This document shows positions 10,034 through 18,333 of a stretch of DNA of 64,000 nt, piece after piece; within the stretch, counting starts at the first letter, position 1, and every line of letters starts with the position of its first letter. The stretch is from an uncultured Alphaproteobacteria bacterium (GTDB lineage: Bacteria; Pseudomonadota; Alphaproteobacteria; GCA-2731375), in assembly GCA_951812805.1 (NCBI GenBank), contig CATOSZ010000003.1:1752557-1816556 (forward strand), in the 5' to 3' direction. The translations under genes and the position numbers were made by a program. A model generated the notes under the pieces. It made no database searches and was not told the origin of the DNA. It saw nothing but the letters and a program-made list of their open reading frames with translations.

Positions 10034-10969
10034 ATGCGGCTTTCGGACGAACAACAGGCCGAAATCGAGGAGTTGAGAGCGGACGCCCATCCGACCCGCC
10101 GCCCCGTCGTCGCGGGCCTGGAAGACCTGCTCTATTCGGCCCGCCCGGTGCTCGACCATGGCTTCGTGCGGGTCGTCGACTATATGGGCGACGACGCGGC
10201 CGTCGTGCAGGCGGCGCGGGTCTCCTACGGCAAGGGGACGCGTCAGGTGCGCGAGGACCGCGGCCTGATCCGTTATCTGCTGCGCCATCGCCACACCACG
10301 CCGTTCGAGATGTGCGAGATCAAGCTGCACGTGAAGCTGCCGATCTTCGTCGCTCGTCAGTGGATCCGCCATCGCACCGCCAACGTGAACGAATACTCGG
10401 CGCGCTATTCCGTCCTGGACGGAGAATTCTATGTACCGGCGCCGGACCATCTGGCCGCGCAGTCGACGGCCAACCGCCAGGGCCGGGGCGACGTGCTGGA
10501 AGGAGAAGAGGCGGACCGGGTGCTGCGGATCCTGAACGACGACGCAAGCCGGGCGCACGCCAATTACCAGGCGATGCTGAACACGGACGCGGACGGCACG
10601 CCGATCGATCCCGCCGCCGACGGCCTGGCGCGGGAGCTGGCGCGGATCAACCTGCCGCTTTCCACCTACACCCAGTGGTACTGGAAGACCGACCTGCACA
10701 ATCTGATGCATTTCCTCAGCCTGCGCGCCGATCCCCACGCCCAGTACGAGATCCGCGTCTATGCCGACGAGATGATGGAAATCCTGCGCGCCTGGGTGCC
10801 GGCGACGGCGGAGGCCTTCGAGGATTTCACCCTCGGCGCGGCGACGTTCTCCAAGGGCGCGCTCGCCGTCGTCCGCCGGCGCCTCGCCGGCGAGGCGGTC
10901 AGCCAGGAGACGAGCGGCCTGACACCGCGTGAGTGGCGCGAGCTGGAGGCGGTGCTGGGCGGCGAATGA
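10034..10969 (+). CDS. thyX: FAD-dependent thymidylate synthase
   Basis: Makes dTMP from dUMP with methylene-tetrahydrofolate and NADPH, 311 residues. The ThyX motif [15 protein letters not shown] (RHRxxSxNExSxRYS class) is complete, and [10 protein letters not shown] precedes it. TGGAGAG precedes the ATG at 10034. The next gene starts inside its stop (ATGA). ThyX-containing cells typically lack ThyA, which would need the rest of the genome to confirm. Confidence 0.96.
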
Positions 10970-11679: not shown

Positions 11680-13239
11680 ATGGCGGGCCATAGCCCGGTG
11701 CCGCCAGGCGGCCGGGCCCGGGCAGCGATGACGGTGGCGGCGGCCCGGCGCCGAACGGCCCATCCCGTCGTCGTGCTGGTCTCGCTGACCTTCACGGTCT
11801 CGGTCTATGTGCTGACGGTCACCGCGATCAATGTCGCCATGCCGCAAATGCAGGGCAGCTTCGCCGCCACCCAGGACCAGATCACCTGGGTGGTGACCGC
11901 CAACCTGCTGGCGACCGCCATCGTCACGCCGTTGAGCGGCTGGCTCGCCAACCGGTTCGGACGCCGTCGCCTGTTGCTCTGGACCCAATCGATCTTCTTC
12001 ATCTCGTCGACGCTCTGCGGTCTTGCCGGCTCGTTGCCGGAACTGGTCGTCTACCGGGCGATCCAGGGTGCCAGCGGCGCGCCGATCATCCCCTTGAGCC
12101 AGGCCATCATCCTCTCCCTCTTTCCCCAGGAGAAGCACGGCCAGGTGGTGTCGATCTGGGCGATCGGCGTCACCTCGGGCACCATCGTCGCGCCGATCAT
12201 CGGCGGCTGGGCGGCGGAGGATTTCAGCTGGCGCTGGGTCTTCCTGATGGTCTCCCCCGCCGCCGCTCTCTGCGTCGTGGCCGTCTGGGCGCACGTCAAC
12301 GCCGAGGAGACGCCGCCACAGCGCAGCCGGTTCGACTGGACCGGGTTCCTGCTGCTGGCGATTACCGTCTCGTCGCTGCAGCTGATGCTCGACTGGGGGG
12401 AACGGCTCGACTGGTTCGAGTCGATCGGCATTTCCCTGCTCGGCCTGGCGGCGATCGGCGCCTTCTATCTCTTCATCGTCCATGTCCTGACGACGGAGAA
12501 GCCGTTCCTCGACCTCCGGCTGCTGGCCGACCGGAACTATGCGGTCGGCATCATCCTCGGCCTCGCCTTCGGGATGCTCTACTATACGACGCTGGTCCTG
12601 CAGCCGGCGATGCTGCAGGATCTGCAGGGCTATCCCGACTCGGCCATCGGGATCATGCAGGGGTTGCGCGGCGTCGGCCTGCTGGCCGGGTCCTTCGCCC
12701 TGCTGTTCGGCATGGGGCGGCTCGATCCGCGGATCAACTTGTTCCTCGGCTTCCTGATGCAGGCCCTGGCCGGCTATGCCATGAGCCTGTTCGACGTCAA
12801 CATGACCGCCTGGGCGGTCGCCTGGACGACCATGCTGCAGGGTTTCGGCATCGGCCTGATGTGGTCGCCGATCACCGTGGTCACCTTCGCCACCCTGGCG
12901 CCGCGCCATGTGCCCGAGGCGGCCTCCGTCTTTCACCTGGTGCGCAACATCGGCTCCAGCGCCCACATCGCGATCAGCGCCTCGCTGCTGGCGCGCGGGA
13001 CCCGGACCAACTACGCCGAGATGGTCGAAGCCCTCAATCCCTTCAGCGAACGCCTCGCCTACGGCGCAGTGGTCGGCGGCTGGAACCTGGAAAGTGCCGA
13101 GGGCCTGGCCGGTCTCGGCGCCGAGATCGGCCGCCAGGCGAACCTGATCGGCTATACCAACGTCTATCTCGGTTACGCGATCTGCGCGGCTTTGGTCATG
13201 CCGCTGGTCTTCCTCGCCCGCCGGCCGCCGGCCGGTTGA
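11680..13239 (+). CDS. DHA2 family MFS drug:H+ antiporter (EmrB/QacA type)
   Basis: 519 residues with fourteen predicted membrane segments. Motif A appears as GWLANRFGRRRLLLW, and the fifth-helix antiporter motif C as WAIGVTSGTIVAPIIGGW. EmrB-type proteins export hydrophobic toxins, normally with an EmrA periplasmic partner, but no EmrA gene is adjacent. The ATG at 11680 has GGAGGGTGG upstream; a second ATG at 11728 also remains possible. It converges on the cupredoxin operon with a 9-bp gap. Confidence 0.88.
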   Translation: MAGHSPVPPGGRARAAMTVAAARRRTAHPVVVLVSLTFTVSVYVLTVTAINVAMPQMQGSFAATQDQITWVVTANLLATAIVTPLSGWLANRFGRRRLLLWTQSIFFISSTLCGLAGSLPELVVYRAIQGASGAPIIPLSQAIILSLFPQEKHGQVVSIWAIGVTSGTIVAPIIGGWAAEDFSWRWVFLMVSPAAALCVVAVWAHVNAEETPPQRSRFDWTGFLLLAITVSSLQLMLDWGERLDWFESIGISLLGLAAIGAFYLFIVHVLTTEKPFLDLRLLADRNYAVGIILGLAFGMLYYTTLVLQPAMLQDLQGYPDSAIGIMQGLRGVGLLAGSFALLFGMGRLDPRINLFLGFLMQALAGYAMSLFDVNMTAWAVAWTTMLQGFGIGLMWSPITVVTFATLAPRHVPEAASVFHLVRNIGSSAHIAISASLLARGTRTNYAEMVEALNPFSERLAYGAVVGGWNLESAEGLAGLGAEIGRQANLIGYTNVYLGYAICAALVMPLVFLARRPPAG

Positions 13240-13248
13240 CCGCGGAGC

Positions 13249-13740
13249 CTAGCGATCCCGGGTTTTATACTCGTACTCGTCCTCGTCGAAATACTCGAGC
13301 AATCGGCCGCGATAGTCGGCGAGCTCGCGGGCGCTCGGCTGGTGGAAGTCCTGGTCGGCCGAGTGTTGGCCGACGATGATCACGCCGTGCATGCCCATGG
13401 GGATATGTGGCATGCAGTGATACTCGTAGGTGCCGGCCTTGGTGAAGGTCATCGACCATTTGTCCTGGGGCTTGGCCAGATCGGGGCTGGAAAAGGCGAC
13501 GGCCCCCTTTGGAAAGCCGTCGGGGAAGGTGACGATATTGTGGTCGACCGCCGCCTCGTTCACCCATGTCACCGTATCGCCCGGCGCCACCACGAGATAC
13601 TTCGGGCTGAAATACATTCTCAGGTTCTCGAGGTCGCTGACCACGCGGACGATATGCTCTTCGGCCCGGACCGTGGTTGCCGGACCCGCCAGGGCGAGGA
13701 CCAGGGCCAGAACGAGGGGCGAAATACTCGATACTTTCAT
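13249..13740 (-). CDS. Periplasmic cupredoxin (plastocyanin-like)
   Basis: 163 residues with signal peptide (hydrophobic residues 5-25, cleavage near VRA-EE). Type 1 copper ligands are visible: His in AVDHNIVTF, then Cys, His and Met in YEYHCMPHIPMGMHG. A charged C-terminal tail of about 40 residues follows the fold. Expected to carry electrons in the periplasm. Last gene of a likely minus-strand operon with another cupredoxin (14-bp gap) and a di-heme peroxidase. Confidence 0.88.
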   Translation of the reverse strand: MKVSSISPLVLALVLALAGPATTVRAEEHIVRVVSDLENLRMYFSPKYLVVAPGDTVTWVNEAAVDHNIVTFPDGFPKGAVAFSSPDLAKPQDKWSMTFTKAGTYEYHCMPHIPMGMHGVIIVGQHSADQDFHQPSARELADYRGRLLEYFDEDEYEYKTRDR

Positions 13741-13754
13741 GACATCCCGTCTCG

Positions 13755-14069
13755 CTATTCGACCTTGAGGGTGATCTTCATCTTCGGATGAATCGCACAG
13801 CGAACCTTCACCTTGCCCGGCTTGGAGAAGGTGTGTTTCGCCGCCGTGCCGGGGGCCTGCGCACCCATGTCGAACTTGTGCCCGCTGCTCGAGGAATAGA
13901 CGTTGTGGGTGATCTTGTCGTTGTTGACGAAGTTGACCGTATCGCCGACGGCGATGGTCATCTTGCGTTCGGAGAACTTCTTGCGCTCCTGGCTGACGGT
14001 GTGTTCCGCCGCCAGGGCACCGCTTGCCATGAAGCCGGCGGCTAGGAGGGTGGCAAGGGCGAATTTCAT
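13755..14069 (-). CDS. Small periplasmic cupredoxin
   Basis: 104 residues with signal peptide MKFALATLLAAGFMASGALA. Copper site: His in KITHNVYS and the C-terminal VRCAIHPKMKITLKVE with Cys, His and Met in CxxHxxM spacing. This matches the methylamine utilisation/plastocyanin-type family that serves di-heme peroxidases. Start at 14069 marks the signal peptide, with GAGG upstream. Lies between the peroxidase gene (43 bp) and the larger cupredoxin gene (14 bp). Confidence 0.9.
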   Translation of the reverse strand: MKFALATLLAAGFMASGALAAEHTVSQERKKFSERKMTIAVGDTVNFVNNDKITHNVYSSSSGHKFDMGAQAPGTAAKHTFSKPGKVKVRCAIHPKMKITLKVE

Positions 14070-14112
14070 GATAAGCCTCTTCGTTTCGGGTTTCGTTGCG
14101 GCGAAAGTTAGA

Positions 14113-15282
14113 TCATTCAGGGGTGCAGGGCCTGAGGTGCAGGCGGGCAACGCGACATTCCGGGGAGACTTCGCCGCCGCCGCTGCCCGCCGCCGGGCTC
14201 ACCCGGCGCAGCCAGGCGTTCGGAGACTGATCGTTCGCCGGGAGGACCGGCACCGCGACGACGGGGTCGTTGCCGTCGAGGGTGCGCATAAAGGCGATCA
14301 GGTCCGCCTTCTCGTCCGCTGTCAGCTTGAGGGCGTGCATGTCGTCGGAGAGGCTCGGGCGCTGCTTGCCGCCGCCGTCATAGTGATCGATGACATCGGC
14401 GAGGGTCGCCAGCGAACCGTCGTGCATATAGGGCGCGCGCGAGACGACGTTACGCAAGGTGGGCGTCTTGAAGGCGTGCTGCATCTTCACGATGGTCTTC
14501 AGCACGGCGCCCCGGCCGATGTCGTCGTCCGACAGGCCGATATCGTGGAAGCTGTCGTCGGTCAAGTTCCAGCCGCTGTGGCAGGCGACGCAATTGGCCT
14601 TGTTGTTGAAGAGGTCGAAACCCCGTTTCGCCGCGTCGCCGATCGCCGTCTCGTCGCCGGCGATCCACAGGTCGAAGGGCGCCACGCCGCTGACCACCGT
14701 CCTCTCGAAGGTCGCGATCGCCTTGGCGATGTTCGGGACGGTGATGCCTTCGCCCGGGAAGGCGAGGTTGAACAGGCTGACATAGCCCGGCACCGCCTTC
14801 AGTTCCTCGACGATGGATTCCATCTGCTGGTTCATTTCCGCCGCCGCGGCCATCGGGCCCAGCGCTTGCTGCTCCAGGCTGTCGAAGCGGCCGTCCCACA
14901 TCATCAACTCGCCGAAGGCCGTGTTCAGGATGGTCGGCGTGCGGCGGCCGAGCGGGGTCATCTTGTGACCGAAGCCGGTTGGCAGGCCGTCGCCCCAGGA
15001 AAAGCTCGGGTTGTGGCAAGTGGCGCAGGAGATGTAGTTGGCGCCCGACAGGCGGGGATCGAAAAACAGCTTGTGTCCGAGGTCCGCCTTATCCCGGGTA
15101 TAGGGGTTCTCCTCCGGGAAGGGGACTTCGCTCGGGCGGACATATTCCGCTTTCCAGTCCTGCCGGCTCATCTCCACCGCCTTTTCGCCGGCGGTTGTCG
15201 CCGACGCGGCGCCGGGTGCATTCAGCAGAATCGCGACGGTCAGCGCCGCCGCCCCTCGCGTGATCCGATCCGCCACGGTCAT
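14113..15282 (-). CDS. Di-heme cytochrome c peroxidase / MauG-family protein
   Basis: 389 residues with signal peptide and two CxxCH haem sites, SCATCH and NCVACH, in order. The conserved FKTPTLRNVVSRAPYMHDG block of bacterial cytochrome c peroxidases is present. It should reduce peroxide, or oxidise a partner protein as MauG does, using electrons from small periplasmic carriers, and the two cupredoxin genes just downstream are natural donors. The chemoreceptor gene upstream ends 39 bp before its start. Confidence 0.9.
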   Translation of the reverse strand: MTVADRITRGAAALTVAILLNAPGAASATTAGEKAVEMSRQDWKAEYVRPSEVPFPEENPYTRDKADLGHKLFFDPRLSGANYISCATCHNPSFSWGDGLPTGFGHKMTPLGRRTPTILNTAFGELMMWDGRFDSLEQQALGPMAAAAEMNQQMESIVEELKAVPGYVSLFNLAFPGEGITVPNIAKAIATFERTVVSGVAPFDLWIAGDETAIGDAAKRGFDLFNNKANCVACHSGWNLTDDSFHDIGLSDDDIGRGAVLKTIVKMQHAFKTPTLRNVVSRAPYMHDGSLATLADVIDHYDGGGKQRPSLSDDMHALKLTADEKADLIAFMRTLDGNDPVVAVPVLPANDQSPNAWLRRVSPAAGSGGGEVSPECRVARLHLRPCTPE

Positions 15283-15321
15283 GGTTCGTTCCTCCCTCGA
15301 TTGCCGGCCGACCAGTCTTGA

Positions 15322-17268
15322 TCAGGCGGCGTCCTCGACATCGTCGAGAAGTTTGCAAAGCGCGGCATGCGCCGCTTCGTTCAGCTCGAATTCCACGCCG
15401 TAGCAGTCGGTGAATTCGTTGCGGATGGTGGAGTCGAGCAAGCCCACCTCGGGCACTTCCAGGGCGATGGTCTCCCCCATCATGCCGGCCTCGATCTTCG
15501 AGATTCGGGCGCCGCCTTCGGACATCTCGCTCAAGGCGATGTCGTGCCATCGCTCGGCGTAGCGGGCCCGGGTCGGGATCGAGACGCCGACGCGCGGGTA
15601 CTGGCGCCGATTGCCGGCCGAAGACCGGCGCAGGATGGTCTTGAGCTGGGTCTGCAGCTCCTCGATCGTCTGGTTGACGTCGCTCGCGTTCCGGCGCACC
15701 TGGTCGGCGAGCTCTTCGGCCTCGCGGGAGGCCTGCGTGACCTGCTCGGTGCTGTCGAAGACCGACTGCGTGCCGGCCGCGACCTCGCGCATGCTGGTGG
15801 CGATCTGGCCGGTGGACGCGGCCTGTTCCTTCATCGCGCCTTCGATCTCGGTGGTGATGTCGTTGACCTCGCGCACCGTTTCACCGATCTCGGTGATCGA
15901 AAGGGCGGCCTCACGCGTGGCGTCGCGAATGGCGTCGACGTGCTCGCGCACCTCGTCCGTCGCCCGGGTCGTCTGCACGGCGAGGTTCTTCACTTCCGAG
16001 GCCACGACGGCGAACCCTTTGCCCGCCTCACCCGCCCGGGCGGCTTCGATCGTCGCGTTCAGGGCGAGGAGATTGGTCTGATTGGCGATATCGTTGATGA
16101 GAGCGATGATGTCGTCGATCTGGCGGGAGTTTTCCGTCAGCGTCTCGATCTTCTCGTTCGATTGCTCGACCTTGCCCACCGCCTGCTCCGAGATCGCCTT
16201 GGAGCGATCGACCTTGCGGTCGATCTCGTTGATGCTGGTGGACATTTCGTCGGCCGCGCCGGCGACGGTGCGGACATTGGCGCTCGCGGTGTCGGCCGCC
16301 TCGCTCACCGCGCCGCTCTCGCTGGAGACGCTGTTGGCCGTCGCCGTCATGCGGTCGGCGAGGTCGTACATGTCGGAAGCCTTGACCTGGATATTGCCGA
16401 CCCAATCGCCGAGGTTGTCCTCGAGGACCTCGCTCATTTCCAGCATCTCGGACTTCTGGCGGGCCTTGCTGGTGACTTCCTCTTCGGCGCGCATCGCTTC
16501 CAGGCGGTGCTTCTCGATCATGGTTTCCTTGAAGAAACCCACGGCGCGGGCAATGGCGCCGATTTCGTCGCGACGCTCGGTATAGGGAATTTCACGCTCC
16601 ATCTCGCCTTCGGTCAGGCTGGCGATCCGGCGCGTCATCCGGTTGATGGGCCGGGCGATCATCTGGGCGAGCAGGAGGGCGGCGGCAAATCCGACGGCCA
16701 TGGAGGCGCCGGCGAGCCAGAGGACGAAATCGCGGGTTTCCGCGATTGTGCCGGTCGCGTTCTGGCGGAAGATGTAGCCGTTTTCGGAGGCATACTCGAC
16801 GATCAGGTCCAGGTTCTCGTCGATCGCGGCACGCCACCGGGAGGTCGCTTCGACGAGATCGCTCCGTTTCCCTTCGTCGCCCTCGATGGCGGCACCGATC
16901 GCCGACCACCAGGCCTCGCCGTCCGCATTCACTTTCGCCACCAGCTCGGTGATGCGAGGGTCCGTCGAACGTTCGGCGACGACCTCGATATCCTCGATGA
17001 AGACCTCCCAGGCCTCCTCCATCACCTCGACGTCGACCGGCTCGCCGTCCGCCAGCAGTCCGCGGCTCCAGTCGAGGCTCATCCGCTCCAGCTGCAGAAA
17101 ACCGGTACGGGCCGAGCGGGCGAAATTGATCGACATCAACGGGCCGTCGTACATCTTCACGACCAGGTCGCCGACCGACTCCGTCTTCTTGATGGCGACG
17201 AAACCCAGCAGGGCAGTGGCGGCGATGACGAGGGAGAAGGCCAGAAGCAGTTTCGTTCTTATCGACAT
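15322..17268 (-). CDS. Methyl-accepting chemotaxis protein with C-terminal PilZ domain
   Basis: 648 residues. Membrane segments near residues 8-28 and 182-205 enclose a helical periplasmic sensor of about 150 residues. A HAMP domain follows, then the signalling hairpin with the conserved tip ([22 protein letters not shown]). The last 95 residues form a PilZ domain: RRQYPR supplies the RxxxR c-di-GMP motif and EMSEGG corresponds to (D/N)xSxxG with Glu in the first place. This would let one receptor read both an external cue and c-di-GMP. Upstream of the start lies a CtrA-like site. The gene heads a row with the di-heme peroxidase and cupredoxin genes. Confidence 0.93.
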
Positions 17269-17330
17269 GCAAGCTCCACCAACCGGTCAGCGTCTTTTTG
17301 GCGAGTGATCGTAACGTTAGTCGTGGAAAC

Positions 17331-17346
17331 TTAAGATCGGCTTAAG
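17331..17346 (-). promoter_or_regulatory. CtrA-type binding site upstream of the chemoreceptor gene
   Basis: TTAAGATCGGCTTAAG, a full TTAA-N7-TTAA site, 63 bases before the start codon of the chemoreceptor and 103 bases before the divergent transporter. CtrA controls motility and chemotaxis genes in many alphaproteobacteria. Confidence 0.5.
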
Positions 17347-17448
17347 GTCGCGCCGCGGCAGGTCCTGCACGGCACGTGGGCAAGGGGTGCGAAGCGGTCT
17401 ATGGTCGATTGATGCCGCCTCCGCCCGATCCCGTCCCCGACCGCCAGG

Positions 17449-18333
17449 ATGACGATGAATTCCAGTAGCTTCCTGCCGAAACCCTCACTCGTGGGCGCCA
17501 TCCTCTGGATGTTGGGGGCGGTGGTTTCGCTGACCTTGATGGCGCTCGCCGGGCGGGAGCTGATGGCGGAGATCTCCCTCTTCCAGGTGATGTTCTTCCG
17601 CAATTCGCTCTGCCTGCTGGCGCTGGCTTTCATCGTCTGGCCGCGCCGGCGGGAGATTCTGCCGACCCGGCGCTGGCGCGCCCACGGCGGGCGCAACGTC
17701 ATCCACTTCGCCGCGCAGGCCTTGTGGTTCTACGGCCTCGCCTACCTGCCGCTGGGCGAGGTCATCGCGCTCGAGTTCACCGCGCCGGTGTGGACCGCCG
17801 TGCTCGCCGCACTGTTCATTTCCGAACGCCTGAACAGCTGGCGGGTCGCCGGCGTCGTTCTCGGCTTCGCGGGCACCTGGGTCATCCTCAGACCGGGGAT
17901 GGAGATCATCCATCCCGCCTCCCTCGCCGTCCTCGCCTCGGCGATCGGCTTCGCCACGGTGTTCGTCACCACCAAGTCGATGACCGCCAGCGAGCGACCG
18001 CTGACCATCCTGTTCTATATGAACCTGGTGCAGCTGCCGCTTTCGACGGTGCCGGCCTTGTGGGATTGGGTGACGCCGTCGGCGGCGCTCTGGCCCTGGG
18101 TGGCGGTGACCGGTCTGGCCGGCCTCGGCACGCACTATTGTTTCACCAAGGCCTTCCAGCGTGCAGATGCGTCAATCGCCGCGCCGATCGACTTCGTCCG
18201 CCTGCCGCTCTCGGTGCTGCTCGGCTACCTGCTCTATTCCGAGCCGTTCGACCCCTTCGTCGCGCTCGGCGCCGTGGCGATCATCGGCGGGAATTTCTTG
18301 AATATCCGGGGCCGCGCCAAGCTTGCCGACTGA
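17449..18333 (+). CDS. EamA/DMT family transporter
   Basis: 294 residues with ten predicted membrane segments in two repeats of the EamA fold (GREL...FFRN in the first, GTHYCFTKAFQRADASIAAPIDFVRLPLSVLLGY in the second). Such proteins export amino acids or metabolites, but the substrate cannot be read. Two adjacent ATGs (17449, 17455) are equally possible starts. Confidence 0.85.
   Translation: MTMNSSSFLPKPSLVGAILWMLGAVVSLTLMALAGRELMAEISLFQVMFFRNSLCLLALAFIVWPRRREILPTRRWRAHGGRNVIHFAAQALWFYGLAYLPLGEVIALEFTAPVWTAVLAALFISERLNSWRVAGVVLGFAGTWVILRPGMEIIHPASLAVLASAIGFATVFVTTKSMTASERPLTILFYMNLVQLPLSTVPALWDWVTPSAALWPWVAVTGLAGLGTHYCFTKAFQRADASIAAPIDFVRLPLSVLLGYLLYSEPFDPFVALGAVAIIGGNFLNIRGRAKLAD

Follow-up and report, generated by a model that had tools for sequence, protein, structure and literature searches.

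The gene row

In the window analysed here, a stretch of 64,000 nucleotides from an uncultured alphaproteobacterium (contig CATOSZ010000003.1 of assembly GCA_951812805.1), a gene for a chemoreceptor with a C-terminal PilZ domain is followed head to tail on the minus strand by the genes for a MauG-type di-heme enzyme and two cupredoxins, termed CUP1 and CUP2. The conserved core of this row and of its relatives consists of CUP1 and the periplasmic ectodomain of the receptor, with the MauG-type enzyme and the PilZ domain as optional add-ons. Taken together, the row and its relatives suggest an undescribed way of sensing redox outside the inner membrane. The host genome (G000) has 7.4 Mb and is 98.5% complete, and its named relatives are alphaproteobacterial and Rhodospirillaceae metagenome-assembled genomes. 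The features of the row are as follows.

15322..17268, minus strand: chemoreceptor with C-terminal PilZ, 648 aa (Pfam MCPsignal, HAMP and PilZ above cut-off)
16714..17181, minus strand: periplasmic ectodomain of the receptor, residues 30-185, four-helix bundle (alignments A1/A4, AlphaFold2, VIA-align)
16540..16674, minus strand: HAMP domain, residues 199-243 (Pfam 37.9 bits)
15712..16188, minus strand: signalling domain of the methyl-accepting chemotaxis protein (MCP), residues 361-519 (Pfam MCPsignal 123.9 bits)
15370..15612, minus strand: PilZ domain, residues 553-633 (Pfam 24.2 bits, cut-off 22.5; 28.5 bits in the genome search)
14113..15282, minus strand: MauG-type di-heme enzyme, 389 aa (Pfam CCP_MauG 181.3 bits, cut-off 25.6)
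13755..14069, minus strand: CUP1, small cupredoxin, 104 aa (Pfam Copper-bind 34 bits)
13249..13740, minus strand: CUP2, pseudoazurin/amicyanin-like cupredoxin, 163 aa (Pfam Copper-bind 68.8 bits; PDB matches to amicyanin and pseudoazurin)

An initial annotation of this DNA had described four genes on one strand with gaps of 39, 43 and 14 bp, and coordinates, strand and spacing all proved correct; equally, its receptor with a periplasmic sensor and a C-terminal PilZ domain and its two cupredoxins agree with the Pfam assignments. All four genes start with ATG and have purine-rich stretches 5' of the start, the gene calls stemming from a codon-score script by which genes may be missed or mis-started.

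The copper proteins and the di-heme enzyme

CUP1 possesses the type-1 copper ligands H55, C91, H94 and M97 and is thus a type-1 copper protein by its ligand set, the ligand columns being invariant in the CUP1 alignment A2 and nearly invariant across 54 members. The type-1 copper ligand pattern can also be read from the sequence of CUP2. Gene fusions link CUP1 to the other components: in one genome a histidine kinase of 709 aa with the ectodomain of the window receptor ends in a C-terminal cupredoxin that is preceded by a hydrophobic stretch (L180), and in three records MauG-type enzymes are fused to CUP1 (L055 from G359, L059 from G188 and L086 on an Indioceanicola plasmid). Each of the other two partners is therefore found within one polypeptide with CUP1.

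The enzyme belongs to the di-heme CCP/MauG family by its heme sites C86xxCH90 and C231xxCH235 and by the family profile; it also has Trp129 and Tyr301. Because Tyr301 aligns with the Met position of the peroxidase MacA and 49 of 50 aligned sequences have a Tyr there, the enzyme is identified as MauG type rather than as a classical peroxidase, which refines the di-heme peroxidase initially annotated. We take this Tyr to be the MauG hallmark, presumably the distal ligand of the second heme in place of Met. In the PDB, the best sequence matches (210.9 bits) are to the cytochrome c peroxidases of bacteria such as MacA and its kin, with MacA differing in having Met where the window enzyme has Tyr. 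With the MauG of mau clusters the enzyme shares the heme pattern and the Tyr, at 53.7% identity to mauG of Methylobacterium sp. DM1, but unlike that protein it is linked to a sensor and CUP1, and no methylamine dehydrogenase was recognised among the genes called at window positions 5647-26393 in a by-eye comparison with mau clusters. Against the model for the MauG that forms tryptophan tryptophylquinone (NCBIfam TIGR03791) it scored 371.6 bits, below the equivalog cut-off of 443.85. Homologues of the enzyme also occur in 58 Rhizobium plasmid records. Furthermore, a MauG-type gene directly adjoins an MCP gene without CUP1 in L085 and L091, the former (Rhizobium acidisoli) near plasmid repABC genes.

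The receptor

The ectodomain of the receptor is characterized by the motif YDGPLM.INFARSA and a Trp in helix 3 (alignments A1/A4). Near-invariant residues are Asp, Leu, Arg and Ala in helix 1, Arg in helix 2, Trp in helix 3 and Gly in helix 4, and they are largely kept whether or not a MauG-type gene is present, with the helix 3 Trp found in 59 of 65 ectodomains. The window ectodomain stays below the gathering score of Pfam 4HB_MCP_1 (26.0 vs 27 bits), and relatives exceed it (for example L151 with 34.9 and L169 with 38.2 bits). AlphaFold2 run on 15 ectodomain rows predicted a four-helix bundle sensor fold with helices at 2-41, 53-73, 77-102 and 105-160 (predicted local distance difference test, pLDDT, 86; predicted template modelling score, pTM, 0.79). 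A Foldseek search with this model gave no match below E 0.001. The top rows in VIA-align were four-helix sensors of chemoreceptors and kinases, with some designed bundles among them, at Z-scores of 16.0 to 13, of which those near 13 may, for helical bundles, reflect merely a common arrangement; Z was 16.0 to the ligand-binding domain of Vc1313 (8bsa) and 14.8 to MCP2201. Among the fold neighbours obtained with VIA-align and Foldseek are sensors taking their signal from a partner protein, namely LytS with XylFII, QseE with QseG, and TorS, and also Tar.

Two motifs, RxxxR and D/NxSxxG, mark PilZ receptors of cyclic di-GMP (c-di-GMP), the first of them as given in an excerpt of PMC6454048. The window's PilZ domain has the first (RRQYPR at residue 554) and lacks the second, where EMSEGG presents a Glu in the D/N position. 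With RxxxR kept, reading of c-di-GMP by this domain is plausible, but the Glu where Asp or Asn is usual speaks against it. The host genome encodes one CheA and has two flagellin places.

Recurrence of the row

With the enzyme as query, 18 loci were obtained from the genome collection. CUP1 adjoins the enzyme in 16 of them, the exceptions being L031, where the enzyme gene was not called, and L032. A sensor lies near the enzyme in 17 (exception L030), of MCP type in 14 and of GGDEF-EAL type in three (L023, L024, L027), with the sensor in pieces in L031 and on the opposite strand in L015. The order receptor-enzyme-CUP1-CUP2 on one strand is also present in L016 from a Rhodospirillaceae relative, which has a twin in L034. 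The order enzyme-CUP1-CUP2-receptor is present in L018, L019, L020 and L021, the latter two cut by contig ends, and no CUP2 adjoins CUP1 in L022-L029. Among the latter, L026, L028 and L024 come from Bradyrhizobium jicamae, B. lablabi and Rhizobium leguminosarum Tri-43, respectively. With MauG and CUP1 together in 16 of 18 loci and the full order in L016, the row is more than chance; recurrence of the four-gene order in a relative, which the initial annotation had proposed to look for by a neighbourhood survey, was hence observed, with the set rearranged in other loci.

At E<=1e-75 the enzyme was detected at 15 places in 14 of 385 genomes of the class; CUP1 was within 5 kb at nine of the 15 places and fused to the enzyme at two more (G359, G188). 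On plasmids, a search with the N-terminal part of the receptor gave one ectodomain match among 39 listed records, in Neorhizobium sp. EC2-8 (L106), where MauG is in pieces on the gene calls; the other listed records match from about residue 200 on, which is the HAMP part.

Association of the ectodomain with CUP1

A profile built from the 15 ectodomains of the enzyme loci (A1) was searched against the 385 genomes and retrieved, after merging of split matches, 48 proteins in 42 genomes. CUP1 is encoded within 5 kb at 36 of these 48 places, with 0.19 expected by chance, and on the same strand in 33 of the 36. The association follows the ectodomain score, with CUP1 nearby in 33 of 39 cases at 65 bits or more, including 26 of 31 in the band of 65-150 bits, which holds no A1 seed, and in three of nine below 65 bits. 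In the reverse direction an ectodomain is near 30 of 33 CUP1 matches of at least 100 bits, near 36 of 77 overall and near none of 30 below 80 bits, a reciprocal count that is not fully independent because A2 holds CUP1 rows found beside sensors. The window CUP1 alone as blastp query provides a count independent of A2: CUP1 stands beside a sensor in 18 of 20 fetched loci (not in L150, at a contig edge, and not in L154) and, in a second set, in eight of 19 stretches, to which the fused case L180 is added.

The host genome itself repeats this pattern. Of its 12 MCPs over the cut-off, the two with the ectodomain lie less than 2 kb from CUP1; for the other ten no CUP1-family match was found within 5 kb, one of them being 7.6 kb from a weak match. 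The second pair (L169:5255-7273, contig C2) consists of CUP1 and an MCP with the same kind of ectodomain, with no adjoining MauG. In addition, MCPs beside CUP1 in L193:2712-4322 and L196:4679-6397 were missed by the ectodomain profile and contain a related motif, YDKAF.GV.YA.

Outputs and accessory genes

Behind the ectodomain Pfam assigned various outputs: MCP (L016, L151 and others), MCP with PilZ (the window and L052), HisKA/HATPase with receiver and Hpt domains (L152), GGDEF-EAL (L023, L177, L183) and a class III cyclase (L168). The tree of the ectodomain comprises 61 rows, of which 28 are kinases, 24 MCPs, eight GGDEF-EAL proteins and one a cyclase, and requires nine output changes, with a minimum of three; the labels stem from a motif scan, with Pfam for part of the rows, and L150 was labelled MCP with its output off the contig. 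L064, L185 and, except for L052, rows of less than 100 residues were left out of the tree. In the group of Bradyrhizobium/Rhizobium and kin (support 98/99) MCP and GGDEF-EAL members are intermixed. The pair thus stays constant while the output changes, and MCP is one of at least four outputs.

PilZ occurs in two of the 13 MCP-type members checked with Pfam and MauG in nine of the 48 ectodomain loci. The redox- or peroxide-sensing taxis module initially annotated is a fair reading of the row in view of the recurrence, the CheA and the flagellins, but this composition is not defining, because PilZ and MauG are found in these minorities of members. Other accessory genes encode DUF4394 (L152), truncated globins (L166, L192) and DUF3034 (L192).

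In other Pseudomonadota, a search with the CUP1 profile showed cupredoxin-like proteins of about 200-220 aa adjoining GGDEF-EAL proteins (L211, L212, L214, L217-L220), several of them with DUF3034-like and truncated-globin-like genes alongside. In L212 Pfam assigned dCache_3-GGDEF-EAL, DUF3034 and globin, and placed the small protein in no copper family; the ectodomain differs from that of the window. Because of this different ectodomain and the absence of a copper family assignment for the L212 protein, the dCache_3 row is treated as a lead outside the claim.

As separate observations, a CUP1-like protein is encoded near a HAMP adenylate/guanylate cyclase with an N-terminal part unlike the ectodomain in L201 and L202 (Pfam for L201 only), and a cytochrome P460 gene adjoins a CUP1-like gene in L197:4576-5103; L203 and L205 have comparable neighbours containing CxxCH.

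A copper protein as proposed co-receptor

On these grounds we consider it somewhat favoured that CUP1 acts as a dedicated periplasmic co-receptor and that the ectodomain reads its redox or copper state. This reading builds on the observed gene order, recurrence, co-location and fusions, on the conserved copper and heme ligands and on a predicted fold. CUP1, which can be oxidised or reduced, would dock on the ectodomain and convey its redox state, or the accompanying change in shape and charge, via HAMP to the attached output. For the window receptor the output would be the chemotaxis array, with PilZ adding the c-di-GMP level as a second input. In this subfamily the MauG-type enzyme and CUP2 might set the redox state of CUP1 and tie it to peroxide, oxygen or electron supply, whereby the enzyme would probably draw electrons from CUP1 once peroxide or oxygen oxidises its hemes, and swimming would follow the supply of oxidant or electrons in the periplasm. 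A globin may take the place of MauG in feeding CUP1 in other members. Docking, redox as the signal, the direction of electron flow and the sign of the taxis are what we infer here.

Several points weigh against the co-receptor role. CUP1 is not within 5 kb at 12 of the 48 ectodomain places; these are mostly weaker matches but include the strong ones in G306, G208 and G070:C18, with CUP1 present on another contig in G306 and G208. MauG-sensor pairs without CUP1 occur in L032, L054, L085 and L091. The reciprocal count is in part produced by construction, A2 having been partly built from sensor-adjacent CUP1 genes, and preferring redox to copper occupancy as the signal is our choice and does not follow from the data.

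The latter point leads to the main rival, copper sensing, in which the ectodomain reads the copper occupancy of CUP1 and reports the periplasmic copper supply or excess. The invariant copper ligands of CUP1 would suit such a sensor, and copper taxis is known in Caulobacter, where an excerpt of PMC10579534 attributes it to a different, cytoplasmic receptor, McpR. However, heme proteins recur by CUP1, MauG types, which are fused to it in the three records, as well as truncated globins, and would be needless for a copper sensor; furthermore, no copper export genes were recognised in the neighbour lists, in which no search aimed at them was made. We regard copper sensing as unlikely. Less likely still is mere co-regulation, with sensor, MauG and cupredoxins as members of a redox or copper stress regulon and CUP1 not touching the sensor. 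Neighbourhood by itself never proves contact, and some sensors with this ectodomain are without CUP1; yet a single kind of ectodomain is paired with a single cupredoxin subfamily, the pairing outlasts the output changes, and in L180 both partners are parts of one protein. MauG and MbnH oxidise residues of their protein substrates, and covalent setting of the receptor by oxidation of an ectodomain residue such as the conserved Trp, to which the MauG-type Tyr ligand of the enzyme and the near-invariance of the helix 3 Trp might point, is very improbable, the Trp having been rejected as a MauG substrate on conservation because 59 of 65 ectodomains have this residue, many of them without an adjoining MauG, and because it does not track the enzyme.

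If CUP1 is the co-receptor, a tentative extension, to which we give slightly less than even chances, would be a widespread sensor class with a blue copper protein as co-receptor, in which ectodomain and CUP1 form a portable redox-reading head. This head would sit on chemoreceptors and kinases as well as on c-di-GMP enzymes and nucleotide cyclases, and would receive its input from MauG-type enzymes or globins. Cupredoxin-coupled signalling may even have arisen more than once, since other Pseudomonadota have a parallel row in which the ectodomain is a different one (dCache_3) and the cupredoxin-like protein is longer.

Relation to known systems

Energy and redox taxis are commonly attributed to flavin PAS domains or to signals in the cytoplasm, and the reading of redox state in the periplasm is largely an open question. 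If true, the cupredoxin-receptor pair would connect electron flow in the periplasm with swimming, gene control and c-di-GMP by a direct, testable route, give MauG-type enzymes a role outside methylamine clusters and predict what kind of input reaches dozens of sensors with unknown signal. No description of a system of CUP1 and this ectodomain was found among literature titles and abstract openings.

Chemoreceptors with PilZ include Tlp1 and Aer of Azospirillum brasilense and Cbp1 of Azorhizobium caulinodans, which share with the window receptor an MCP domain with C-terminal PilZ (excerpts of PMC6406031 and PMC6454048). According to the same excerpts, Tlp1 has a periplasmic sensor domain with unknown ligand and works in aerotaxis, whereas Aer, unlike the window receptor, senses via a cytoplasmic PAS domain and Cbp1 is soluble. 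The excerpts mention no cupredoxin or MauG partner for any of the three, so that by these descriptions the window receptor is set apart.

Sensors read through a periplasmic partner are represented by TorT-TorS, XylFII-LytS, LuxP-LuxQ and MBP-Tar in an excerpt of PMC6321045, to which QseE-QseG is added from a PDB title. In these systems a soluble periplasmic protein likewise reports to the ectodomain, and the ectodomain model has TorS, LytS and Tar among its fold neighbours. The partner described in the excerpt is, however, a solute-binding protein with a small ligand, whereas here it would be a type-1 copper protein, linked to the sensor by co-location and one fusion.

Genomic surroundings of the row

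A promoter scan of window positions 13000-17600 gave no sigma-70-like site, and terminators were at chance level. Window positions 10034-10969 probably encode ThyX, a flavin-dependent thymidylate synthase, judging from the motif RHRT..N..S.RY. The row is flanked by a divergent EamA transporter gene (17449-18333) and by a convergent gene for a transporter of the major facilitator superfamily (11728-13239).

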